Shown: piece after piece, positions 1 to 11,441 of the stretch
Numbering within the stretch: the first letter of the stretch is position 1
Layout of the letters: every line of letters begins with the position of its first letter
Assembly (NCBI GenBank): GCA_030549955.1
Contig: JAUQQI010000276.1
Coordinates: 1-11,441, forward strand
DNA: 11,441 bases
Reading direction: 5' to 3'
Origin: Chloroflexota bacterium
GTDB lineage: Bacteria > Chloroflexota > Dehalococcoidia > JAUQQI01
The notes under the pieces: model-generated
What the model was told of the DNA's origin: nothing
Database searches by the model: none
The model's input: the letters and a program-made list of their open reading frames with translations, nothing else
Position numbers and translations under genes: made by a program

Positions 1-1308
1 GAAATTGACAAAGTAGGTCAGGCACCACCCGATGAGCGGGTCCACCTCCTCCCCATTTATCCGGCTCGGCCCCACAGTATTGCCGTCGCCGGCATTATCG
101 ACGGGCAAACAGGCCAGGGTTGGGGTTACGAGCAGGTCGTGGGTTTCAAAGACCTTCTGGATGGCATCGTAGATTTCGGTTCTGACGGCCTGGTCGTTGT
201 AAAAGTCAAGGGCTGTGAGCCTGTACCCCCGCTCGACCCACTCCAGGTACTGGGGCGGAAAGTCATCCCGGTGGTCTCGCAGCAGGTCCATGCCCTGGCG
301 CTTGAAGTTTTCCAGGGTCAGGATGTTCACCGGCATGATGAGCCGGCACCAGAGGTCGCTGAGCTCCCGCTGGTGCCGCTTGATTCCCAGCCGCACCTCC
401 TCCACCCGGGCGCCGGCCTCCTCGAAGGCCCGCACCGCCCGGCCCACCACGTCGGCGACCTCCTTCTCCACCGGGAAGACGTCAAAATTCGGGCTGTAAG
501 CGATGCGCCAGCCCCGAATCGACCGGCGGGTCGCAGCCAGCAGGTCCGGCTGCTCGTCGAGGCTGAACGGGTCGCGCGGGTCGTAGCCGGCGACAGCGGT
601 GACAACCAGGGCGCCGTCCTCGACGGTCCGGGTAATCGGCCCTTCGAAGAGGAATGGGGTGTCACCCGCAAACCCGTTGGGCCGGGAAACAAACGGCACT
701 CGCCCAAATGACGGCTTGTAGCCGTAAACGCCACACCACGACGCCGGGATGCGAATGGAGCCGCCCCCGTCCGTGCCTTCGGCAAAGGGTACCAGGCCGT
801 CGGCCACGGCCGCCGCGCTCCCGCCCGAGGAGCCGCCGGTATTTTTGGCCGGATTGAACGGATTCCGGGATGGCCCGAACAGGTAGTTATCACACGTGCC
901 CCGGAAGCCCATTGTCGGACTGTTGGTCTTACCCAGAATGATGGCGCCGGCCTTTTCCACCCGCTCGGCGAAGGCGCAGTAGGCGTCGACCATGAAGTTT
1001 CTGAGGGCCCGGATGCCCCCGAACGTGCTCGGCCAGCCCGGCTTGAAGTCGAACAGGTCCTTGATAGCCGTCGGGACTCCGTGCAGGGGCCCGAGGGTCT
1101 CGCCGGCCATCAGCGCCCGCTCGGCCTCCCGGGCGCGCGCCCTGGCCTCGTCAAAACCGGAGAAAACGAAGGCGTTAATGCTGCGGTTGCGTCGTTCAAT
1201 CCGTTCGATGAAGGCATCTACCACCTCCACCGGCGAAAGCTCCCGCCGGCGAATCCGGTAGGCCAGCTCAACCGCGCCCATATACGCCAGCTCATCTGAA
1301 AGGGCCAT
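1..1308 (-). CDS. Amidase-signature family amidase (C-terminus beyond window)
   Basis: This gene encodes a Ser-cisSer-Lys amide hydrolase. The frame is open from the ATG at 1308 to the left edge, giving 436 residues; the family is usually 450-500, so roughly 30-60 C-terminal residues are missing. GVPTAIKD carries the catalytic Lys (about K83). TGGSSGGSAAAVA (157-169) carries the cis-Ser (about S160). GTDGGGSIRIPAS carries the nucleophile (about S184). The 24-residue spacing between the two serines fits the family. DLLVTPTLACLP lies near the edge, as expected. The start is supported by GGAGGT 7 nt upstream; that site overlaps the stop of lipBA, and the gap between the genes is 5 nt, so it is the last visible gene of the aco operon. 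The substrate cannot be read from the sequence. No gatB or gatC is nearby, so a GatA role in Gln-tRNA synthesis is unlikely. Because known bacterial lipoamidase is also an amidase-signature enzyme, lipoyl-lysine or a lipoamide is one candidate substrate; a small amide is the other. Confidence 0.9.
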   Translation of the reverse strand, partial: MALSDELAYMGAVELAYRIRRRELSPVEVVDAFIERIERRNRSINAFVFSGFDEARARAREAERALMAGETLGPLHGVPTAIKDLFDFKPGWPSTFGGIRALRNFMVDAYCAFAERVEKAGAIILGKTNSPTMGFRGTCDNYLFGPSRNPFNPAKNTGGSSGGSAAAVADGLVPFAEGTDGGGSIRIPASWCGVYGYKPSFGRVPFVSRPNGFAGDTPFLFEGPITRTVEDGALVVTAVAGYDPRDPFSLDEQPDLLAATRRSIRGWRIAYSPNFDVFPVEKEVADVVGRAVRAFEEAGARVEEVRLGIKRHQRELSDLWCRLIMPVNILTLENFKRQGMDLLRDHRDDFPPQYLEWVERGYRLTALDFYNDQAVRTEIYDAIQKVFETHDLLVTPTLACLPVDNAGDGNTVGPSRINGEEVDPLIGWCLTYFVNF

Positions 1309-1313
1309 CACTT

Positions 1314-2801
1314 TCACCTCCCTGTTCCGGTCCTGAGCAGCTCACCGGCCCGGTAGGAGCTCCGTACAAGCGGGCCGGCCGCCGCCTCTTCAAAGCCCAG
1401 GGCCCGGGCAACTTCCCGATACCATTCGAACTCGACCGGGTGAATAAATTCGGCAACCTCGAGATGATGGTCGGTGGGCTGGAGGTACTGGCCCAGGGTC
1501 ACAATGTCGCACCCGGCCCGGCGCAGGTCCTCCAGCACCCCGACGACCTCCCCCCGGGTCTCCCCCATGCCCAGAATGATGCCCGACTTGGTTTTGAGGC
1601 CGGCCCGCCGGGCATAAGCCAGTACCCCCAGGGCCCGCCGGTAGTCTTTCCGGGGCTGGATGACCGGATAAAGCCGGGGAACGGTCTCGACGTTGTGGTT
1701 AAGTACGTCCGGCCGGGCCGCAAGGACCACGTCAAGGGCCCTGGTAGAACCCCCAAAGTCGGGGATAAGCACCTCGACGGTCGCGTCGGGCAGGCGCTGA
1801 CGGAGCGCCCGGATAGTGGCCGCAAACTGGCCGGCCCCGCCGTCGGGAAGGTCGTCCCGGGCCACCGACGTCACGACGACGTGGCGCAGGCCGAGACGGG
1901 CCGCGGCCCGGGCGACGCGGTACGGCTCCAGGGGGTCCGGGGCCCCCGGCCGGCCGCTGGCAACGGCGCAGAACCGGCAGTGGCGGGTGCAGGTCTCCCC
2001 GAGGAGCATGAAGGTCGCCGTGCCGCCGCCCCAGCACTCGCCGATGTTCGGGCAGAGGGCCTCCTCACAGACGGTGTGGAGACGCTCCTTCCGGAAAAGG
2101 CTTTCAAGCCAGGCGACTCTCTCGCCGGTCGGGGCAGGAGCCACCAGCCAGGGGGCCTCCTGAAAGCCGACCTGCCAGTTCAGCCCGAGAACCCCGGCCA
2201 GCTCCTGGCAGAAGGCCCGCTCGACCCCCAGCAGGCCGGGGGCCCGGCCGAGAATCCGGGCCATGGATGTCACCCCCCGGTCGGCCAAGCCGCAGGGGAC
2301 GATGAGGCCGAAATGGTCGAGGTTCGGGTCCACGTTGAGGGCAAGGCCGTGGAAGGTCACCTCCCGGCTCACCGCAAGACCAACGGCCGCAATCTTTTCC
2401 CGGCCGACCCACACGCCGGGATGCTCCGGGTCCCGGTGGGCGGCAATCCCGTAGCGGGCCAGGGTCCGGATGGCCGCTTCCTCCAGGGCCCACAGGAGGT
2501 CGTAAAGCCGGCCGGGGCGGAGCCTGAAAATCGGGTAGAAAAGGAGCTGGCCCGGACCGTGGTAGGTGGCCCGGCCACCCCGCTCCGTAAATTCGAGGCC
2601 GACCCCAAGGGCGGCCAGCCGCCCCCGGCTGACCCGCAGGTCTTCCATCCCGCCACCCCGGCCCAGGGTTATGACCGGCGGGTGCTCAACAACCAGCAGG
2701 ATATCTCCGACCCGGTCTACCTGGCGGGCCGCAACGAGCCGCCTCTGAAAAAGGTGTGCCCACCGGTAAGCAAGCCGCCCGAGTCTCAGAACCGTAATCA
2801 T
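1314..2801 (-). CDS. Fused octanoyltransferase-lipoyl synthase (LipB-LipA)
   Basis: One uninterrupted 495-residue frame carries two enzymes that are normally separate. Residues 1 to about 210 are LipB, which moves octanoate from octanoyl-ACP to a lipoyl-domain lysine. Its motifs are ERGGRATYHGPGQL (73-86), WVGREKIAAVG with catalytic Lys136, and IVPCGL with catalytic Cys170. Residues from about 216 are LipA, the radical-SAM enzyme that inserts two sulfurs into the octanoyl chain. TVCEEALCPNIGEC (243-256) has the CX4CX5C auxiliary-cluster cysteines 245/250/256. CTRHCRFC has the CX3CX2C radical-SAM cysteines 271/275/278. RSSY (480-483) is the C-terminal motif whose Ser ligates the auxiliary cluster. 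Every key residue I looked for is present in both halves, so both are probably active. The junction, around residues 211-225, contains the usual LipA N-terminal 'PWL' element and no long linker. The ATG overlaps the acoL stop as ATGA, so translation is probably coupled; its own Shine-Dalgarno is weak. Confidence 0.95.
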   Translation of the reverse strand: MITVLRLGRLAYRWAHLFQRRLVAARQVDRVGDILLVVEHPPVITLGRGGGMEDLRVSRGRLAALGVGLEFTERGGRATYHGPGQLLFYPIFRLRPGRLYDLLWALEEAAIRTLARYGIAAHRDPEHPGVWVGREKIAAVGLAVSREVTFHGLALNVDPNLDHFGLIVPCGLADRGVTSMARILGRAPGLLGVERAFCQELAGVLGLNWQVGFQEAPWLVAPAPTGERVAWLESLFRKERLHTVCEEALCPNIGECWGGGTATFMLLGETCTRHCRFCAVASGRPGAPDPLEPYRVARAAARLGLRHVVVTSVARDDLPDGGAGQFAATIRALRQRLPDATVEVLIPDFGGSTRALDVVLAARPDVLNHNVETVPRLYPVIQPRKDYRRALGVLAYARRAGLKTKSGIILGMGETRGEVVGVLEDLRRAGCDIVTLGQYLQPTDHHLEVAEFIHPVEFEWYREVARALGFEEAAAGPLVRSSYRAGELLRTGTGR

Positions 2802-4141
2802 CGGAGCTGTCCAAGGGCATCCCGGGCGGCCTCCACCAGCGCCTCGGCCACCGTCGGGTGGCCAGGGTCGAGGTTGGCCAGGTCCTCGACCAGGGCCTCG
2901 AGTTTGAGGGCCACCGCCGCCGTCGAAATCACCTCCGTTGCCAGGGGGCCGACCAGATGGACGCCCAGGAGCCGGCCGTGGGGCCTGGAGGCAACGACCT
3001 TCGCAAAGCCGAGGCTCTGGCCTAGGGTTAGTGCCCGGGCATTGAACCCCAGGTCGGCCCGCCCGGCCGCCCGGGCCTCCGGCTCCGTGAGACCGACTGC
3101 CCCGACTTCGGGCCGGGTGTGGTAGTTTCGGGAAACCGGTCTGGGGTCAAACTCGCGGTCGAACCCCAGGGCATTTTCGGCGGCGACCGTTGCCTGGGCC
3201 CTTGCAAAATTCGAGAGCATCCGGCCGCCCGTTACATCCCCGGCGGCGAAGACCCCGGGCAGGGTCGTGGCCTGCCGGCGGTCGGTCAGGACCGCCCCAT
3301 TTTCCGGGTCAAGGCCCGGCCCGACAACTTCGCCGGTCCGGGGCCGGCGGCAGTCCGAGACCAGAAACCGGTCGGCAAGAACGGTCCCGTCCCGGCCGAC
3401 GGCCGCGAGCCCGTTATCGGCCGCCTCCAGCCGGACCAGCTTCCAGCCGGTCCGGACCTCGATACCGGTCTCGGTCAGCACGAACTGGAGGGCCTCGGCG
3501 ACTTCCGGGTCCTCCGCCGGCAGGAGTTGCGCTCCCGGCTCAAGAATTGTCACCCGACTGCCGAAGGCCTGATAAAACTGGGCCCATTCGACCCCGATGA
3601 ACCCCCCGCCGTAAACCGCCAGCTGGCGGGGCACTTCGGAAAGGGCCAGGCAGTGGTCGGTCGTCCAGACGCCCGGCAGGTCGATGCCGGGAACTTCCGG
3701 CAAGATAAAGGCGGCCCCGGTCGCCAGGATGACCCCCCGTCCGGTGAACCGCTCCGGCCGGGCCCCGCCGGCGACAACCTCCACGGCGCAGCCGGGCAGG
3801 GGCCGGGCCTGCCCTTTTACCAGGTGGACCCCGAGCTGGTTCAGGTAAAAGGCGGTTCCCGAATGAACCCGGTCGATGACCTCATCGAGCCGGCGGCGGG
3901 CCAGGGAGAGGTCAGGGGTACCGGTAGCGGCCGGGCCCCAGCCGGGACCTTCGGCGGCGGCCCGCCAGCGGTTTGCCACCTCCAGGCCGGCGACGGTTGG
4001 CACGCAGCCCCGGTGCAGGCACGCGCCCCCGAGGCGCTCCTGCTCGAATAGAACGACCCGGGCCCCGAGCTCCCGGGCCCGGAGGGCTGCGGCAACCCCG
4101 GCCGGGCCGCCCCCGACCACGAGGATATCGGCGTCGGCCAT
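2798..4141 (-). CDS. acoL: Dihydrolipoamide dehydrogenase (E3)
   Basis: This 447-residue flavoprotein reoxidises the E2 dihydrolipoyl group and passes electrons through FAD to NAD+. VVGGGPAGVAAAL (8-20) is the FAD-binding dinucleotide fold. GGACLHRGC has the redox disulfide C41/C46. YGGGFIGVE (177-185) is the NAD-binding fold. GVFAAGDVTGG (296-306) is the second FAD contact. The interface domain ends with GHPTVAE, which supplies the His428-Glu433 active-site dyad. One oddity is that the residues after the second Cys are CVPTV rather than the usual C(I/V)PSK, so the conserved Lys beside the flavin is absent; the first His of the common HxHPT motif is Gly. Length is slightly under the family norm (about 460-480). 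The start has GGAGGT 7 nt upstream, inside the last codons of acoC; the intergenic gap is 3 nt. The symbol acoL is given from operon context, and lpd would be the generic name. Confidence 0.93.
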   Translation of the reverse strand: MADADILVVGGGPAGVAAALRARELGARVVLFEQERLGGACLHRGCVPTVAGLEVANRWRAAAEGPGWGPAATGTPDLSLARRRLDEVIDRVHSGTAFYLNQLGVHLVKGQARPLPGCAVEVVAGGARPERFTGRGVILATGAAFILPEVPGIDLPGVWTTDHCLALSEVPRQLAVYGGGFIGVEWAQFYQAFGSRVTILEPGAQLLPAEDPEVAEALQFVLTETGIEVRTGWKLVRLEAADNGLAAVGRDGTVLADRFLVSDCRRPRTGEVVGPGLDPENGAVLTDRRQATTLPGVFAAGDVTGGRMLSNFARAQATVAAENALGFDREFDPRPVSRNYHTRPEVGAVGLTEPEARAAGRADLGFNARALTLGQSLGFAKVVASRPHGRLLGVHLVGPLATEVISTAAVALKLEALVEDLANLDPGHPTVAEALVEAARDALGQLR

Positions 4142-4144
4142 CGG

Positions 4145-5302
4145 TCAGACCTCCCCAAAAATCAGGGCCGGCTGGGCCAGCATGCCGGCCAGGGTCTGCA
4201 AAAAGGCGGCCGCCGGAGCGCCGTCGACGATGCGGTGGTCGAACGTGAGGCTCAGGGTCATTAGACTTCGAACGGCGAGCTGGCCCCGATAAACGGCGGG
4301 CTTTTCGATAATCCGGCCGACGCCCAAAATTGCCGCCTCGGGCGGGTTGATAATCGGGGTGAAGGCGTCGATTCCGTACATCCCGAGGTTGCTGATGGTA
4401 AACGTACTGCCGGTGACCTCGTCAACCGTGAGCGTCCCGGCCCGGGCCGCGGCCGCAAGCCGCCTGAGCTCCCGGTCAATCTCACCCAGCGTGAGCCGGT
4501 CGGCATTACGGATGACCGGGACGATCAGCCCGTCCTCCAGGGCGACCCCAACCCCGATGTTTATCTCGTCCAAAAGCCGGATTTCGTCCCCGACCAGGGT
4601 CGCGTTTAAGACCGGGTGCCGCCTGAGGGCGGCCGCCACCGCCTTCACAAGTACCGCTGTGTAACTTATGTCCACTTGCGCCTTCAGCCGGTCGACGAAC
4701 TCGACCAGGCCTGTGACGTCGGCTTCGGTGGTGATGGTGACCTGGGCCATCGCCTGCAGGCTCTCGGTCATTCGCTCGGCGATCGCCCGCCGCATGCCGG
4801 CAAAGGGGACCGTCCGGGCGGCCGGCGGGGCCTCCGGGGCGGCCGGGGCCATCCGGCGCTGTTCCAGGTAGGCCAGCACGTCCGACTCCTGGACCCGCCC
4901 GCCCGGACCCGTCCCCCGGACCTCCCCCAGGTCGATACCGTGCTCCCGGGCCAGGCGCTTGGCCATCGGGGTGGCCAGCACCTCACCGGCCGGGGTCGGG
5001 GGCCGTTCGGCGGGTGCCGGTCCCGGCGCGGCCGCCGGGGCGGCGGGGATGACAGGCAGCTCCTCGCCGGGGGCGAGGATGTAGCCGATGACCGCCCCGA
5101 CGGCCAGCTTCGCCTTCGGTGGGGCGGCGTGGCGAAGGATGCCTTCCTGGGGTGCCTTGACCTCGTAGGTGATCTTTTTACTCATCACCTGAACAATCGG
5201 CTCATCCCGGGCTACCCGGGCCCCATCCTCCCTGAGCCACCTGACGACCTCTCCTTCGGTCATGGCCATCCCGAGTTTCGGCATGACGACCTGCACTGCC
5301 AT
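4145..5302 (-). CDS. acoC: Dihydrolipoyl acyltransferase (E2) of acetoin/2-oxoacid dehydrogenase
   Basis: This is the core E2 of the complex: it takes the acyl group made by E1 on a swinging lipoyl arm and transfers it to CoA. It has 385 residues. A single lipoyl domain (2 to about 78) has the attachment lysine in [10 protein letters not shown], probably K43. A Pro/Ala-rich linker (about 81-105) follows, then a peripheral E3/E1-binding domain (about 107-147; [24 protein letters not shown]). A second linker leads to the catalytic domain (about 163-385), ending with DHRIVDG (His356, Asp360). An upstream in-frame ATG at 5338 would add 12 residues, but the start at 5302 has AGGAGG 6 nt upstream and begins directly with the lipoyl domain. 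That ATG overlaps the acoX stop by 1 nt (TGATG). In most E2s the lipoyl lysine follows Asp or Glu, whereas here it follows Lys. The symbol is given from context; motifs alone do not distinguish AcoC from a small pyruvate dehydrogenase E2. Confidence 0.92.
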
Positions 5303-6318
5303 CAGCAACCTCCTGAAGGACCGTCGGGTGCTTCCCAAGCCAGGTCGAAGGCCCCCCGCCGGGTTGCCTCGGCCAGGGCCGCCTCGATATCCACCACCCG
5401 GGGACCGGCCGTCGTGAGCCGAACGGCCACCGTCTGCTGCAGGCCGACCTCGACCTCTCGCTCGCCGTCAAGGGCAACGGTACAGTTGCCGGGGTCAAGG
5501 TGGACCTCCTCCCCGGCCTCCAGCAGCCGGTGTTCCAGGATCCCGACCGGGACGACCAGGCCGGGGGCGATGGGGGCGAGCACCTGGCGCCCGCCAGCCC
5601 CCAGCCGCAGGTAAAGGCCGTGGGTGTTTCGGGGGCTCAAAGTTGTCAGACAGCCCCCGACGGCCGCCAGGCCGACGGTCCCCGGCCGGGCCTGGGCCAG
5701 GACCGCCTCCCGGAGCCGGCCCGGGTCCCACAGGGCCCGGCTGCCGACAAAGAGGTCCCGGCTCGTCGCAATGTCGACCAGGGCCACATCGATGAGCTCC
5801 CCGTCGACGTAAAGTTCAAGTCGCTTGGTCCGGTACGTGACGGCGTCCGCCGGGACAAGGCCCGCGGCGATGACCCCGGCAGCCAGCCCGGCCACCGTCC
5901 CCTCCACCATGACCGGGAAGACGTTATTGGTGCCCGTCGAGACGGGGATGAGGGGGACATCCCCGGCGCCCCGGGCCGCCGCCCGGTTGGTGCCGTCCCC
6001 GCCGACGGTGACGATGCAGGCCACCCCGGCCTCGGCCATGATTCTGGCCGCCCGCGTCGAGTCCCGGGCGTCGCCGTATACCGGCATCTCGATAATGCGG
6101 GCATCGAGGCTGAGGCGCAGGCCGTCCAGGGCCCGCAGGCCGAGGCCGGCCGTGTCGGGCATAATGAGCACCCGGCGCACGCCCAGGGCGTCCAGGGCCC
6201 TGAGCGTGCGCCGGATGATATTCACTTTTTCGTTGTTGTCAAACACCGAGGCCTGGGCCACGAGGCGGCGGATATCCTTGCCCGAGGCCGGGTTTGCGAT
6301 GATGCCGACGGCCGACAT
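5302..6318 (-). CDS. acoX: AcoX-type ATP-NAD kinase-like protein
   Basis: This 338-residue protein belongs to the NAD-kinase/diacylglycerol-kinase-like superfamily. It opens with GIIANPASGKDIRRLVA (5-21) and carries the nucleotide motif VTVGGDGTN (103-111), followed by PVSTGTNNVFP (125-135). This combination is typical of AcoX proteins found with acetoin dehydrogenase genes. The family's biochemical role is not established, and NAD-kinase activity should not be assumed. The frame continues upstream to 6504, but that extension is Gly/Pro/Arg-rich shadow sequence lying over acoB. The ATG at 6318 fits the conserved N-terminus and overlaps the acoB stop as TAATG. I see no good Shine-Dalgarno, so translation probably depends on coupling. 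Its position between E1 and E2 matches the acoABXCL order and is the main reason to favour acetoin as the substrate of the complex. Confidence 0.88.
   Translation of the reverse strand: MSAVGIIANPASGKDIRRLVAQASVFDNNEKVNIIRRTLRALDALGVRRVLIMPDTAGLGLRALDGLRLSLDARIIEMPVYGDARDSTRAARIMAEAGVACIVTVGGDGTNRAAARGAGDVPLIPVSTGTNNVFPVMVEGTVAGLAAGVIAAGLVPADAVTYRTKRLELYVDGELIDVALVDIATSRDLFVGSRALWDPGRLREAVLAQARPGTVGLAAVGGCLTTLSPRNTHGLYLRLGAGGRQVLAPIAPGLVVPVGILEHRLLEAGEEVHLDPGNCTVALDGEREVEVGLQQTVAVRLTTAGPRVVDIEAALAEATRRGAFDLAWEAPDGPSGGC
5309..5314 (-). promoter_or_regulatory. Ribosome binding site that fixes the acoC start
   Basis: AGGAGG lies 6 nt before the ATG at 5302. The alternative ATG at 5338 has no comparable site and would add 12 residues not expected before a lipoyl domain. 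Confidence 0.85.
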
Positions 6319-7349
6319 TACACGCGGCCCAGGGCCGTATTGACCGCCTGGATTATCTTCTCCGGCGACGGGATGTAGTAGTCCTCGAGGACCGGGCTGA
6401 ACGGGACCACCGTATGGGGCGCGGTCACCATCTGGGGCGGCCCATCGAGGTATTCGATGGCCCGGGTCGTGACCAGGGCGACGATGTCCGTGGCCATACT
6501 GCACCGGGGATTGTCCTCATCGACCACGACCAGGCGGTGGGTCTTTTTCACCGAGCTGATGATGGTTTCCTCATCCAGGGGCGAAAGGGTCCGGGGGTCC
6601 ACGACCTCGACACTCACCCCGTCGCCGGCGGCCAGCCGCTCGGCGGCTTCGAGGGCGAAATGAACCATCCGGCCGATGGCGACAACGGTGACGTCCCGGC
6701 CTTCCCGTTTGATGTCGGCCTGGCCCAGCGGGATAGCATACTCGCCTTCCGGGACCTCCCCCTCCATGTCGTAGAGGACCTTGTGCTCGAAGAAGATAAC
6801 CGGGTCATCGTCCCGGATGGCCGAGATGAGCAGACCCTTGGCGTCGTAAGGGGTCGAAGGCACCACCGTTTTGAGGCCGGGCATATGGGTGAAAACCGAG
6901 TAATGGCAGCCGGAGTGCTGGCCGGCGGCCCGAAATCCGGCCCCGACCATGGTACGGATGACCATCGGGACCTTCGCCTTGCCGCCGAACATGTACCGGA
7001 GCTTTGCGCCCTGGTTGAAGATCTGGTCCATGCAGACGCCGAAGAAATCGACAAACATCAGCTCGGCGATGGGCCGGAGGCCGGTAGCCGCGGCCGCAAC
7101 GGCCGCCCCGATGAAGGCCGACTCGCTGATGGGCGTGTCAAGGACGCGGGTCCGGCCGAACTCTTTGGCGAGCCCTTTGGTTACTCCCAGGACGCCGCCC
7201 CAGGCCTCCTCACCCCGGCCCTCCACGTGGGGGAGGCGGGCCCCGCCGGCCACATCCTCCCCCATGATAATGACGGTCGGGTCCCGCCGCATCTCCAGCC
7301 GGATCGCCTCATTTATGGCCTCCCGGAAGGTCATCGAACGGCCTGCCAT
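6318..7349 (-). CDS. acoB: Thiamine-diphosphate dehydrogenase E1 component, beta subunit
   Basis: This 343-residue beta subunit pairs with AcoA to form the alpha2beta2 E1 that cleaves acetoin (or decarboxylates a 2-oxoacid) using thiamine diphosphate and reductively acylates the E2 lipoyl arm. The N-terminal pyrimidine-binding half contains VIIMGEDVAGG (26-36) and DTPISESAFIGAAV (71-84). Glu76 in the ISE motif is the expected cofactor-activating residue. Further family blocks are FVDFFGVCMDQIFNQ and GAGFRAAGQHSG. The C-terminal transketolase-like half has VEVVDPRTLSPLDEETI and VVVDEDNPRCSMATDI. Length is normal for the family. The start is supported by AGGAGG 7 nt upstream, overlapping the acoA stop codon (TAAGGAGG); the gap to acoA is 12 nt. 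Sequence motifs alone do not separate acetoin from pyruvate or branched-chain E1 beta. Confidence 0.92.
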   Translation of the reverse strand: MAGRSMTFREAINEAIRLEMRRDPTVIIMGEDVAGGARLPHVEGRGEEAWGGVLGVTKGLAKEFGRTRVLDTPISESAFIGAAVAAAATGLRPIAELMFVDFFGVCMDQIFNQGAKLRYMFGGKAKVPMVIRTMVGAGFRAAGQHSGCHYSVFTHMPGLKTVVPSTPYDAKGLLISAIRDDDPVIFFEHKVLYDMEGEVPEGEYAIPLGQADIKREGRDVTVVAIGRMVHFALEAAERLAAGDGVSVEVVDPRTLSPLDEETIISSVKKTHRLVVVDEDNPRCSMATDIVALVTTRAIEYLDGPPQMVTAPHTVVPFSPVLEDYYIPSPEKIIQAVNTALGRV

Positions 7350-7361
7350 GGCGCTTCCTCC

Positions 7362-8333
7362 TTACGGATATTTAACATAAACATCCGTCAGGCACTCCTC
7401 CGGGGCCGGGTAAGGGCTCGCCTGGGCGAACCGGACCGCGGCTTCGACGGCCTCCCGGGCCCGGGCATCGATGGCGTCCAGCTCGTCGGCGGTGAGCAGG
7501 TTGCGCTCAAGGACCCGGCGCCGGAACTGGTCGAGGGGGTCCCGCCGCCGGTACTCTTCTTCCTCCTCCGGCGTCCGGTAGGTCAGGGGGTCGCCCTGGA
7601 AGTGCCCGTAGTACCGGAAGGCCCGGGCCTCAATCAGGGTCGGGCCCTCCCCCCGCCGGGCCCGGGCGATAGCCTCCCCCGCCGCCTCATAGACGGCAAA
7701 GACATCGGTGCCGTCCACCAGGATGCCGGGCATATTGTAGGCCACGCCCCGGTCGGCAATGTCCCTGGCCGCGCAGTGGTAGAACCACGGGGTCGACTCG
7801 GCGTAGAGGTTGTTTTCACAGACAAAGATAACCGGCAGTTTCCAGATGGCCGCCAGGTTCATCGCCTCGTGCATCGTGCCCTGCTCAGCAGCCCCATCCC
7901 CGAAGAAGCAGGCCGTAACCGAATCGGACCCCGTCACCTTGGCCGTCAGGCCCGAGCCACAGGCCAGGGGACCGCCCCCGCCGACGATGCCATTGGCCCC
8001 AAGCATTCCCTTACTCACGTCGGCGATATGCATGGAGCCGCCCTTGCCCTTGCAGGCGCCCGTGGCCTTCCCGAAGAGCTCCGCCATCATCGCATTGATG
8101 TCGACCCCTTTAGCGATGCAGTGGCCGTGGCCCCGGTGGGTTGAAGTGATGTAGTCCCGGTCGGTCAGGTGGGCGCAGACCCCGACGGCGATGGCCTCTT
8201 CGCCGGCGTAGAGGTGGACAAACCCGGGCAGGAGACCCTGGGCGAACAGCTCGGCCACCTTGTCTTCAAAGCACCGGATGAGGCGCATGCGCTCGTAGAT
8301 CCAGAGAAGCGTATCCCGCGAGATTTCGGCCAT
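7362..8333 (-). CDS. acoA: Thiamine-diphosphate dehydrogenase E1 component, alpha subunit
   Basis: This 323-residue alpha subunit provides the thiamine-diphosphate site of E1. FVHLYAGEEAIAVGVCAHL (38-56) is the N-terminal family block. STHRGHGH (64-71) and CKGKGGSMHIAD (94-105) are cofactor-pocket blocks. The diphosphate/Mg motif runs from GDGAAEQG (145-152) to CENN (172-175). The block GANGIVGGGGPLACG (112-126) is also typical. The frame continues one codon upstream to TTG at 8336, but ATG at 8333 has AGGAGG 5 nt upstream, whereas TTG would leave only 2 nt; I choose the ATG. It is the first gene of the operon, about 108 nt downstream of the inferred transcription start. The AcoA assignment rests on overall resemblance plus the neighbouring acoX; an automated annotation might call it pyruvate dehydrogenase E1 alpha. 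Confidence 0.92.
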   Translation of the reverse strand: MAEISRDTLLWIYERMRLIRCFEDKVAELFAQGLLPGFVHLYAGEEAIAVGVCAHLTDRDYITSTHRGHGHCIAKGVDINAMMAELFGKATGACKGKGGSMHIADVSKGMLGANGIVGGGGPLACGSGLTAKVTGSDSVTACFFGDGAAEQGTMHEAMNLAAIWKLPVIFVCENNLYAESTPWFYHCAARDIADRGVAYNMPGILVDGTDVFAVYEAAGEAIARARRGEGPTLIEARAFRYYGHFQGDPLTYRTPEEEEEYRRRDPLDQFRRRVLERNLLTADELDAIDARAREAVEAAVRFAQASPYPAPEECLTDVYVKYP

Positions 8334-8338
8334 CAAAC

Positions 8339-8448: not shown

Positions 8449-8478
8449 ATTATATTTCTCCCCGGCTGCCCCTGTCAA
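8449..8478 (-). promoter_or_regulatory. Consensus sigma-70 promoter of the aco operon
   Basis: On the minus strand, TTGACA (8473-8478) and TATAAT (8449-8454) are separated by 18 nt. Both hexamers match the housekeeping consensus exactly. A transcription start near 8442 is expected, giving a 5' leader of about 108 nt before acoA. I find no -24/-12 sigma-54 element (TGGCAC-N5-TTGC) in the region and no AcoR-type activator gene in the window. Confidence 0.8.
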
Positions 8479-8663: not shown

Positions 8664-9422
8664 ATGAAAACTAAGGCCCGACCGGCGGCCGAAGACCAGA
8701 ACCGCCCCCGACCGGGCCAGATTCTCCGGGCGGCGCGGCAGGAGCGGGGGCTGAGCCTCGACGATGCGGAGCGGGCTACCCGCATCCGGCGCGAGTTTCT
8801 CGAGGCCCTCGAAGCCGACGATTACGAACGGCTCCCGCCTCCGGTTTACACCCGGGGTTTCATCCGGTCGTACGCCCGCTGGCTCGGCCTTGACCCCGAC
8901 CAGGTTGTCAGCTTCTTTCCTTGGCGACCGGCCCAGCCCGACTTCAGACCCCTCCCGGTAATTCGAAATCCTGAGTCCGCCTGGCCGGCGAGGATTCTTG
9001 TTGCCATGGTGGTGCTTCTCCTGCTGGGGACCGCCTATGCCGTCGTCAGGCTGGTGGGGGCCGCCGGCCCCGGGCCCGGTCCGGGCCCCGCCACCCTGCC
9101 GGGTCCCACGCCCCCCCCGGCCCCGACCCAGGCTCCGCCCCCGCCCACCCCGACGTCGGTCGTCGACCAGGTGCAGGTCCAGCTCCGGGTCATCGAGCGG
9201 GCCTGGGTGGCCGTTACGGTCGACAACCAGCAGGTCTTCCAGGGCATCCTCGAGATCGGCGACACCCGAACCTGGACCGGCCGCCAGCGGGGGGCAATCC
9301 GGTGCGGAAACGCCGGGGGCGTCGAGGTCTACCTGAACGGGCGCCGGCTCGGCCTTCTCGGCAGGCCCGGCCAGGTTGTCGACGTCGAGTGGACCCTGCA
9401 GGACGTGCGCAACCTGCCCTGA
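8664..9422 (+). CDS. RodZ-like HTH membrane protein (DUF4115)
   Basis: This 252-residue protein has the RodZ domain order. A cytoplasmic helix-turn-helix (about 16-85; GQILRAARQERGLSLDDAER, then YTRGFIRSYARWLGLD) is followed by one transmembrane segment (about 109-131; ILVAMVVLLLLGTAYAVV). An extracytoplasmic Pro/Gly-rich linker (about 134-164) leads to a C-terminal DUF4115 domain (about 169-246; IERAWVAVTVDN, GNAGGVEVYLNG, LGRPGQVVDVEW). RodZ links the MreB cytoskeleton to the cell-wall machinery in rods. Many bacteria outside the model species have such proteins with no proven cytoskeletal role, and no mreB is visible here, so I do not assign the symbol firmly. It is transcribed away from the aco operon and heads the rodZ-hyuB-recF group; the gap to hyuB is 57 nt. 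The linker codons include an 8+1+8 GC palindrome at 9072-9088. Confidence 0.85.
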   Translation: MKTKARPAAEDQNRPRPGQILRAARQERGLSLDDAERATRIRREFLEALEADDYERLPPPVYTRGFIRSYARWLGLDPDQVVSFFPWRPAQPDFRPLPVIRNPESAWPARILVAMVVLLLLGTAYAVVRLVGAAGPGPGPGPATLPGPTPPPAPTQAPPPPTPTSVVDQVQVQLRVIERAWVAVTVDNQQVFQGILEIGDTRTWTGRQRGAIRCGNAGGVEVYLNGRRLGLLGRPGQVVDVEWTLQDVRNLP

Positions 9423-9479
9423 CCGGGGTATAAATAAATCCGGCGTATTTAAACACCGAACCTGCAGGAGCCGGAGTTT

Positions 9480-11060
9480 ATGAGTGACCCGATAACCCTC
9501 GAAATTTTTAAAAACCTCTTCGCCTCGGTCGCCGAAGAGATGGGCGTAACCCTGGGCCGGACCGGCTATTCACCCAATATCAAGGAGCGGCGGGACTACA
9601 GCTGTGCCGTTTTCGACGAGCACGGCCGGCTCATCGCCCAGGCCGCCCACATTCCCGTCCACCTGGGCGCCATGCCGATGTCTGTCAAGACTGCGATTCG
9701 CCTTTTTACCTTCGCCCCCGGCGACCTGGTGATTTTAAACGACCCGTACCTTGGCGGCACCCACCTGCCAGATATAACCCTGGTGTCGCCGATCTTCGTT
9801 GCCGGCGAACTGGTTGGGTTTGCGGCGAGCCGGGCCCACCACGCCGACGTCGGGGGCATGTCGCCGGGCTCCATGCCCCTCGCCACCGAAATTTACCAGG
9901 AGGGGGTAATCATCCCGCCCCTGAAGCTGGTGGAGGCGGGCCGCCTTAACAAGTCCCCGCTGGTCCGGTCTCTCCCCGGTGTGCAGACGCCGGAGGAGCG
10001 CCTTGGGGACCTCAATGCCCAGATGGCCGCCCACGAGGTTGGGGCCCGGCGGCTGGCGGAGCTGATCGGCCGCTACGGTCTCGACGAAGTCCGGGCCCAG
10101 ATGGTCGCCCTTCTCCAGTACTCCGAGCGGCTTACACGCCATGCCATTGCCCGGATCCCGGACGGCGAATACTACTTCGAAGATTACATGGACGACGACG
10201 GCCTCAATGACCGGCCCATCAAGGTCGCGGTCACCGTTCGGGTTACCGGTGATGAGCTTACGGCCGACTTCACCGGGTCCGACCCCGAGTGCCTCGGACC
10301 GGTAAACGCCGTTGAGGCCGTGACCCAGTCGGCTGTGTATTACGTGGTCCGGTGCCTGGCGGGCGAGGAGGTTCCGGCCAATGCTGGCTGTTTCCGGCCG
10401 GTAAAAGTTATCGCACCGGAGGGGACCATCGTCAATGCCCGCCCACCCCGGGCGGTCTCCGGGGGCAACGTGGAGACGTCCCAGCGGATCGTCGACGTCG
10501 TTCTCGGGGCGGTGGCCCAGGCCGTGCCGGACCGGGTTCCGGCCGCAAGCCAGGGCACCATGAATAATGTCGTCATCGGCGGCTGGGACCCGTTCCGCAA
10601 CCGGTACTTCGCCTACTACGAGACCATCGGCGGCGGCGCCGGGGCCGGCCGGGGCAAGCCCGGCCTTTCGGCCACCCACGTCCACATGACGAACACCCAG
10701 AATACCCCGGTCGAGGCCCTGGAGTTCACCTATCCCCTCCGGGTCCGCCGTTACGCCGTGCGCCGCGGCTCGGGCGGGGCGGGGCAGTACCCGGGCGGGG
10801 ACGGCATCATCCGGGAATACGAGATTCTCGTCCCGGCCACCGTCACGGTGATGACCGAGCGCCGCCGGTTCGCCCCATATGGCCTCGCCGGCGGCAAGCC
10901 CGGAAAGCCGGGCGAAAACCTGCTGGTCATCCCCCGAAACGGGGAGCCGCAAACTCGTAGCCTCCCTCCAAAGGTAACCGTTCGGGTTGAGGCCGGGACG
11001 CGGCTGGTCATCCTGACGCCCGGCGGGGGCGGCTGGGGCGAGCCGCCCGATGCTCGTTGA
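9480..11060 (+). CDS. Hydantoinase B / oxoprolinase-family protein
   Basis: This 526-residue protein is a full-length member of the HyuB family (N-methylhydantoinase subunit B, 5-oxoprolinase C-terminal part, acetone carboxylase alpha). It starts with the family signature DPITLEIFKN (3-12), then YSPNIKERRDYSCAVFDEHG (30-49), LNDPYLGGTHLPDITL (86-101) and SRAHHADVGGMSPGSM (117-132). It ends with the usual glycine-rich TPGGGGWGEP (513-522). AGGAG lies 9 nt before the ATG. Family members normally work with an ATP-binding HyuA partner encoded next door, but here the neighbours are rodZ-like and recF, so the partner must be elsewhere or this protein acts differently. The substrate cannot be deduced. 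The last codons overlap recF by 11 nt, suggesting one transcript and coupled translation. Confidence 0.9.
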   Translation: MSDPITLEIFKNLFASVAEEMGVTLGRTGYSPNIKERRDYSCAVFDEHGRLIAQAAHIPVHLGAMPMSVKTAIRLFTFAPGDLVILNDPYLGGTHLPDITLVSPIFVAGELVGFAASRAHHADVGGMSPGSMPLATEIYQEGVIIPPLKLVEAGRLNKSPLVRSLPGVQTPEERLGDLNAQMAAHEVGARRLAELIGRYGLDEVRAQMVALLQYSERLTRHAIARIPDGEYYFEDYMDDDGLNDRPIKVAVTVRVTGDELTADFTGSDPECLGPVNAVEAVTQSAVYYVVRCLAGEEVPANAGCFRPVKVIAPEGTIVNARPPRAVSGGNVETSQRIVDVVLGAVAQAVPDRVPAASQGTMNNVVIGGWDPFRNRYFAYYETIGGGAGAGRGKPGLSATHVHMTNTQNTPVEALEFTYPLRVRRYAVRRGSGGAGQYPGGDGIIREYEILVPATVTVMTERRRFAPYGLAGGKPGKPGENLLVIPRNGEPQTRSLPPKVTVRVEAGTRLVILTPGGGGWGEPPDAR

Positions 11061-11441
11061 GCGACTTCGGCTCATCAACTTCCGGAACTACGCCCGGCTC
11101 GACATCGGCCTGCCCGCCGGAATCGTCATCCTTTACGGCCAGAATGCCCAGGGCAAAACGAACTTCCTTGAGGCCGTCTACCTGCTGGCGACGACGAAGT
11201 CCTTCCGGGCAACGACCGACCGGGAGCTGATTCACTGGCTGGCCTTCAGTCAGGATTTCCCGGTCGCCCGGGTCATGGCCCAGGTCAGCCGCAAAACGGC
11301 CGGTCCCCTGAACATCGAGGTCATCATCGCCCCGCAGTCCGGCTACGAAACGAGCGGGGCCACCGTTAAGCGCATCAGGATTAATGGCGTTGTAAAGCGG
11401 GCCGTCGACCTGGTCGGCCAGCTCAGGGTGGTGCTCTTCAC
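11050..11441 (+). CDS. recF: DNA replication/repair protein RecF (N-terminal part, cut by window)
   Basis: The first 130 residues are visible; the complete family is about 350-400. The protein is an SMC-like ATPase that helps load RecA at single-strand gaps. LRLINFRNYARLDIGL (6-21) is the standard RecF opening. GQNAQGKTN (30-38) is the Walker A motif, with LEAVYLLATTKSFR directly after it. INGVVKRAVDLVGQLRVVLF near the edge matches the block before the family's 'PEDL' motif. The ATG lies inside the end of hyuB in another frame (11-nt overlap). The local GGGGCGAG is a poor ribosome binding site, so coupling is likely. recF is often found between dnaN and gyrB, but upstream here it has hyuB and rodZ-like genes instead. 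Confidence 0.93.
   Translation, partial: MLVERLRLINFRNYARLDIGLPAGIVILYGQNAQGKTNFLEAVYLLATTKSFRATTDRELIHWLAFSQDFPVARVMAQVSRKTAGPLNIEVIIAPQSGYETSGATVKRIRINGVVKRAVDLVGQLRVVLF

Follow-up and report, generated by a model that had tools for sequence, protein, structure and literature searches.

The open reading frame at positions 1314..2801 of the minus strand joins an octanoyltransferase (LipB) and a lipoyl synthase (LipA) in one polypeptide of 495 residues. It is the last gene of a row encoding a complex of the acetoin dehydrogenase type within the window, by which we mean the whole stretch of 11,441 nucleotides that was analysed. Fusions of this architecture are already widespread in another bacterial class, and the version in the window is not a new kind of enzyme. 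Rather, it is probably a rare, separately evolved variant of a LipB-LipA architecture known from genomes. We consider it fairly probable that the protein is a working bifunctional enzyme that performs tethered two-step lipoylation, mainly of the complex to which the neighbouring E2 belongs.

The frame opens with an ATG at 2801 and closes with a TGA that ends at 1314. Its LipB half (about residues 1-200, to about 205; 2202..2801, minus strand) matches the NCBIfam model TIGR00214 over residues 29-184 with 134.1 bits against a cut-off of 83.55, and its LipA half (about residues 216-495; 1317..2156, minus strand) matches TIGR00510 over residues 216-491 with 356.8 bits against 310.25. Pfam concurs, placing LplA-B_cat at residues 14-201 and Radical_SAM at residues 267-426. 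The LipB half falls below the cut-offs of four other LipB equivalog models, the nearest being PRK14345 (145.2 versus 155). Alignments with LipB structures (2qht, 2qhs and 1w66) end at residues 204-210 and those with LipA structures (5exi, 4u0o and 8tsk) start at residues 213-217, so that 2 to 12 residues lie between two complete enzymes.

Catalysis by LipB depends on a Cys/Lys dyad, and both of its residues, Lys136 (2394..2396) and Cys170 (2292..2294), are invariant in an alignment of 25 fused LipB-LipA proteins, a subset of those collected. In the LipA half, the same 25/25 conservation is found for the auxiliary-cluster cysteines C245, C250 and C256 (CX4CX5C; 2034..2069), for the radical-SAM cysteines C271, C275 and C278 (CX3CX2C; 1968..1991) and for the RSS of the RSSY motif at residues 480-483 (1353..1364). 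All of these codons lie on the minus strand and were checked. The roles of the two cysteine motifs and of RSSY, which supplies a serine ligand, are described in PMC12246082. At the junction, both other frames contain stops, and third-position GC content is uniform across the six genes of the row (82-86%). The first-pass annotation had described a single 495-residue frame with intact motifs of both enzymes, and these data bear it out. Judged from its sequence, this is a functional-looking LipB-LipA protein.

A model computed with AlphaFold2 from the alignment of 25 fused proteins has a mean pLDDT of 87.9 and a pTM of 0.59, with both domains well folded. Between them, residues 210-225 (about 16 residues; 2127..2174, minus strand) are predicted to form a disordered tether, with pLDDT values below 50 and a gapped, variable stretch in the alignment. 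The model therefore suggests tethering of the two domains and not a fixed channel. The idea that the octanoylated domain is passed directly from transfer to sulphur insertion, as had been proposed earlier, is not favoured by a disordered tether and a pTM of only 0.59.

The row is encoded on the minus strand in the order E1α-E1β-AcoX-E2-E3-LipBA. The E1α gene (7362..8336, with a TTG start at 8336 or an ATG at 8333) and the E1β gene (6318..7349) were identified by profiles. They are followed by an AcoX-like gene of the NAD-kinase family (5302..6318, 1017 nt; PF01513, with homologues in aco clusters), a gene for an E2 acyltransferase of 385 residues in which Pfam recognises lipoyl, E3-binding and catalytic domains (4145..5302), and a gene for a dihydrolipoyl dehydrogenase-like E3 (2798..4141), which scores 310.7 with TIGR01350 and is below the cut-off of 408.8. 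The genes are closely packed, with overlaps of 4 nt between E3 and LipBA and of 1 nt each at AcoX/E2 and E1β/AcoX, and gaps of 3 nt between E2 and E3 and of 12 nt between E1α and E1β. Upstream of E1α, a perfect consensus match to TTGACA-18-TATAAT (8449..8478, minus strand; 12/12, with a mean of 0.1 for shuffles) marks a candidate sigma-70 promoter. The earlier placement of the fusion beside lipoyl-enzyme genes is supported by this row, in which E1, E2 and E3 lie upstream.

The models that the E1 components match are those of pyruvate dehydrogenase (PDH): E1α scores 371.4 against a cut-off of 393.85, and E1β (344.5 versus 321) passes one subfamily cut-off and is below that of the equivalog. The gene content of an aco cluster, acoX together with E1α, E1β and E2, is present in the window. 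The AcoX-like protein is about 42% identical to plasmid proteins annotated as NAD(+)/NADH kinase in the two records examined, and in both records the kinase gene is directly followed by E1α and E1β genes and by an E2 gene annotated as acetoin dehydrogenase. After that E2 comes lipA in Mycetohabitans, but not in Chelatococcus. According to PMC3543383, acoX is typical of acetoin clusters; the one of Pelobacter carbinolicus comprises acoABCSL and acoX, where acoS encodes lipoyl synthase, and a nearby locus number belongs to lipB. The precedent that had been named for an acetoin cluster with a linked lipoyl synthase gene is thereby confirmed, with Mycetohabitans as a further case. The P. carbinolicus cluster and the AcoX-E1-E1-E2-lipA row of Mycetohabitans resemble the window in linking lipoyl synthase to AcoX, E1 and E2, whereas their lipB and lipA are distinct genes or the stretch contains no lipB. 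AcoX and gene order are the features that point to acetoin as a putative substrate.

The same fusion occurs in two other assemblies from the phylum (L084/G034 and L004/G412), where it is full length, 55-56% identical and located downstream of E3. Each of the three genomes has an AcoX gene, an E2 with an unusual SKKI loop (discussed below) and an E3 upstream of LipBA. In G412, two other genes spanning about 2 kb separate E3 from LipBA. In G034, AcoX and E2 are on a different contig from LipBA: L231 (G034 contig C126) carries AcoX, two E1 pairs (one of them cut) and the SKKI E2, and L126 (C182) carries a partial E1β, an SDR-like gene, E3 and LipBA. The two parts may belong to one cluster.

The fusion is rare in the phylum of the window. 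Among the matches listed for 400 genomes of the phylum, uninterrupted full-length fusions are those of the window's own genome (G000) and G034, and the match in G154 has one internal TAG. Among the matches listed for 393 genomes of the class, G000 has the only uninterrupted fusion. In both surveys up to three candidates per genome were scored and the counts were made by eye; full-length fused matches rank first, and further uninterrupted fusions are unlikely. No uninterrupted fusion was found in 61 genomes of the order of G154, and in a separate set of 21 genomes G000 again had the only one. Across the 80 loci kept from 589 matching stretches, at least five encode both enzymes in a single frame (L004, L009, L010, L011 and L026).

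The statement of the first-pass annotation that the two enzymes are usually separate proteins overlooks the class of G414, an apparently Acidimicrobiia-like group in which the fusion is widespread. Here, with up to three candidates scored per genome, 357 of 395 genomes match at 1e-60. Of the 150 matches listed, 148 span both halves (the exceptions are G752 and G843), seven of them with one in-frame stop, and at least 141 of the 395 genomes were counted by eye to have an uninterrupted fusion; this total is a lower bound, and further fusions are expected beyond the matches listed. The best 30 (L171-L200) are all single frames. The matches listed include one at 1e-60 for each matching genome, and two for G519, which suggests that a fused LipB-LipA can probably meet the needs of a cell. 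One record titled Acidobacteria bacterium ATN3 (L026/G416) is placed in this class, and its title may be wrong. The fusions of the class of G414 (Acidimicrobiaceae and actinobacterium records) share with the window protein the two domains, their order and the catalytic residues, as well as an E3 gene in stretches L163-L166 and an E2 gene in L163. They differ in being widespread in their own class, in standing apart as a clade of their own in the LipA and joint trees, and in the length of the junction between the aligned halves, which is 175-319 nt in 30 loci versus 76 nt in the window. In the plasmid collection, seven of the best 15 of 214 matching records are covered to at least 80%, each by two separate pieces, and the annotated records among these seven (H10 and H13) have separate lipA and lipB genes. 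Among the open-licence PMC papers listed, judged by titles, opening lines of abstracts and selected passages, we found no description of a LipB-LipA fusion, nor of its spread in the class of G414.

Phylogenetic trees were built from 43 loci with both genes, which remained after 14 near-copies had been dropped from 57. Rows with a LipA match of fewer than 230 or a LipB match of fewer than 150 query residues (including L007) were left out, and so were L011, L013 and duplicate entries for a locus. The three fusions of the phylum form one clade (99/98 in the joint tree and 100/99 in the LipB tree) adjoining 11 separate lipB-lipA pairs from the window's class. In the LipA tree alone they are paraphyletic in the best tree, but the test does not reject their monophyly (p-AU 0.428). 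A second clade unites the other three fusions in the joint (100/99) and LipA (100/95) trees, which the LipB tree does not resolve (51/5). Uniting all six fused rows in one clade is weakly rejected, with p-AU values of 0.0495 (joint), 0.038 (LipA) and 0.015 (LipB). The trees thus favour two separate fusions, one per group.

Twelve longer stretches were taken from relatives in the class (L125, L127-L129 and L155-L162). Five of them have an E3 gene just upstream of separate lipB and lipA genes (L125 and L156-L159); four of these also have E2, and two have E1 as well (L157 and L158). The other seven (L127-L129, L155 and L160-L162) have no E3 just upstream of lipB, and some of them are cut by contig ends or by the choice of stretch. 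Most likely, the fusion arose from such an E3-lipB-lipA row once in the phylum and once in the other class. It would then have formed in place, where lipB, followed by lipA, already lay behind E2 and E3. G154 has a natural near-fusion behind its E2 and E3 genes (L125, 2041-2046, minus strand): no nucleotide separates the TAG of lipB from the ATG of lipA, and both genes share one frame. This locus is nested among separate, out-of-frame pairs, and its interpretation as a direct ancestor or a split fusion is unsupported.

The genome of the window (2.47 Mb in 334 contigs, 82% complete) holds further lipoylation genes. Contig C232 has a separate pair, in the order lipA-lipB, beside E1α, E1β and E2 genes. 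Contig C126 of the same genome (L139, 484-2490) has a third lipoylation set, an LplA-like gene behind two GcvH-like genes that lie side by side, although the LplA-like and second GcvH-like proteins score below curated cut-offs. Six biotin/lipoyl domains are above the cut-off, two of which have the biotin motif MKM (C307 and C316), and the remaining four are in E2-like proteins (C232, C279, C244 and C281). That each lipoylation set adjoins an acceptor protein suggests a division of labour, and the sets on C232 and C126 fit this idea. The fusion is not a fresh duplicate of the C232 pair, whose genes are in the order lipA-lipB, out of frame and elsewhere in the trees, with identities of 49% (LipB) and 54% (LipA) to the fusion halves. 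No LipA or LipB apart from the fusion was detected in the draft genomes G034 and G412, where the fusion must serve every client that needs these enzymes. The first-pass annotation had proposed an enzyme dedicated to this complex, to be abandoned if a second complete lipA/lipB pair were found together with loss of activity in the fusion. The second pair exists, on C232; loss of activity is not seen, since the motifs are kept, and dedication is plausible.

The E2 of the window has an altered lipoyl-lysine loop of ten residues (5159..5188, minus strand) in which Lys42 replaces the Asp or Glu that precedes the target Lys43. This SKKI loop was located at 5159-5188 (minus strand) in the window, at 4529-4558 (plus strand) in L131 and at 2849-2878 (minus strand) in L231, and a stretch of 12 residues around it was read from the E2 of the window, of G412 and of G034. 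In the G412 E2, a run of ten Ns just upstream of the loop breaks the frame, and the loop is in frame with the remaining E2. Among 65 distinct loops, the residue before the lipoyl lysine is Asp in 45, Glu in 16, Ser in one and Lys in three; the underlying set of 107 distinct E2-like frames, 20 of them lacking an alignable lipoyl domain, is not a random sample of E2s. The three Lys loops are those of the three fusion genomes of the phylum and are absent from the other 62. Because these genomes form one clade, they amount to one evolutionary observation and not three. In the class of G414, the E2 loops read beside fusions are of the ordinary TDK type, which shows that a fusion as such does not need SKKI. 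Nor is SKKI a general feature of AcoX clusters, since other loops occur in L156, L237, L240, L243 and L246, all without the fusion, and in two plasmid aco clusters (L169 and L170). In quick trees, the E2s of the three fusion genomes group together (SH-aLRT 85, not starred), and the E1β of the window is nested in a group whose E2 loops are TEK or TDK; G034 is represented there by one row, its second partial copy being too short to place. The loop thus tracks the fusion more closely than it tracks E1.

In the explanation we favour, the LipB half would transfer octanoyl from acyl-carrier protein onto the E2 lipoyl domain, and the tethered LipA half would then insert two sulphurs by radical SAM chemistry. 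The fusion may be made together with the complex of the same row and mainly serve it. Fusion would ensure equal amounts of both activities and keep both near the same E2 core, with no rigid channel. Several observations count against this explanation, namely the LipB cut-offs that are missed, the seven of 12 related stretches without E3 just upstream of lipB, the role of the fusion for all clients in G034 and G412, the PDH models matched by the E1 components, and the mosaicism of the row, in which the E1β groups with AcoX clusters (L237 and L240) whose retrieved stretches contain neither lipB nor lipA. The protein might instead be a general-purpose enzyme for any lipoyl domain, linked to E2 and E3 merely for convenience of expression. 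We judge this unlikely: it would be redundant in G000, given the C232 pair beside another E2 and the LplA-like gene, and the E2 beside it has an unusual loop, even though the situation in G034 and G412, the ordinary TDK-type E2s in the class of G414 and the description of LipB as an all-purpose transferase in PMC10332631 are in its favour. The fusion might also have come about neutrally from neighbouring in-frame genes, without functional consequence and with halves that work as they do when separate; this has a real chance but is also rather unlikely. The abutting genes of G154 demonstrate that lipB and lipA can come that close, and a disordered tether agrees with this reading; on the other hand, G154 itself lies among separate pairs, and the fusion has been held across the deep divergence of the three-genome clade and in the same order in many genomes of the class of G414. 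Finally, an assembly or sequencing artefact is extremely improbable. The genome is a draft, but the junction frame is undisturbed and two related assemblies have the same architecture, and chance or assembly error is therefore not a serious option.

The meaning of the loop is more evenly balanced. Whether SKKI reflects recognition by E1 or E3 and is unrelated to lipoylation and to the fusion is nearly an even question, which we lean slightly against. As reported in PMC6270654 (section 12), the D41K variant of a Bacillus stearothermophilus lipoyl domain is lipoylated on the correct lysine only, and D41 substitutions slowed reductive acylation, which speaks for such a role and contradicts the notion that Lys at -1 alone blocks lipoylation. 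The nesting of the window E1β among those of clusters with TEK or TDK loops speaks against it. So does the Met at -3 of the SKKI loops, at the position where, according to PMC2753649, a change from Glu to Gln prevents lipoylation of human PDH, although Met at -3 is not special to them, being found in seven of the 65 loops, four of which are not SKKI (including the C232 E2). We regard a co-adapted loop as the most interesting lead. It is quite unlikely, in our estimate, that fusion and E2 form a co-adapted, partly orthogonal lipoylation module in which the SKKI domain is poorly modified by the C232 LipB and LipA and by LplA. Just as speculative is the corollary that the complex would be switched on only by the co-encoded enzyme, with loop and fusion staying together despite exchange of E1.

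Lipoylation is an old pathway in which two enzymes must meet the same protein-bound substrate in turn. The fusion probably occurred twice in the same order, once as a rare form with one complex and once in a form now widespread in its class, which suggests that tethering is workable and possibly useful. The fusions offer naturally occurring enzymes with which substrate hand-over can be tested. Should the E2 loop indeed be matched to the fusion, one 2-oxoacid-type complex would have a private lipoylation system of its own, comparable to the lipoate-protein ligases specific for LbpA in sulfur oxidisers (PMC6067878). In both cases a lipoylation enzyme is encoded with its acceptor; the LbpA ligases act on theirs, while the case of the window is known from sequence, and they belong to a ligase pathway and to sulphur oxidation, not to LipB and LipA. 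An LplA-LipA fusion (NF053790, LplA_LipA_fuse) likewise has an acyl-attaching enzyme in front of LipA, but its first half is LplA and not LipB. The window protein reaches 356.5 bits with this model, whose cut-off is 800, and the match spans residues 232-486 and thus the LipA part only.

A few further features of the window were recorded. No tRNA genes or known RNA families were found within it. The usual motif CVPTK/CIPSK of E3 proteins ends in Lys, but the E3 of the row has CVPTV in its place, with the CX4C pair kept. Downstream on the same strand (1-1317, minus strand), an amidase gene with a GTG at 1317 overlaps the 3' end of the fusion and continues past the window edge. At 8664-11441 (plus strand), divergent from the row, are a RodZ-like gene, a hydantoinase B gene and the start of a RecF/SMC-like gene.
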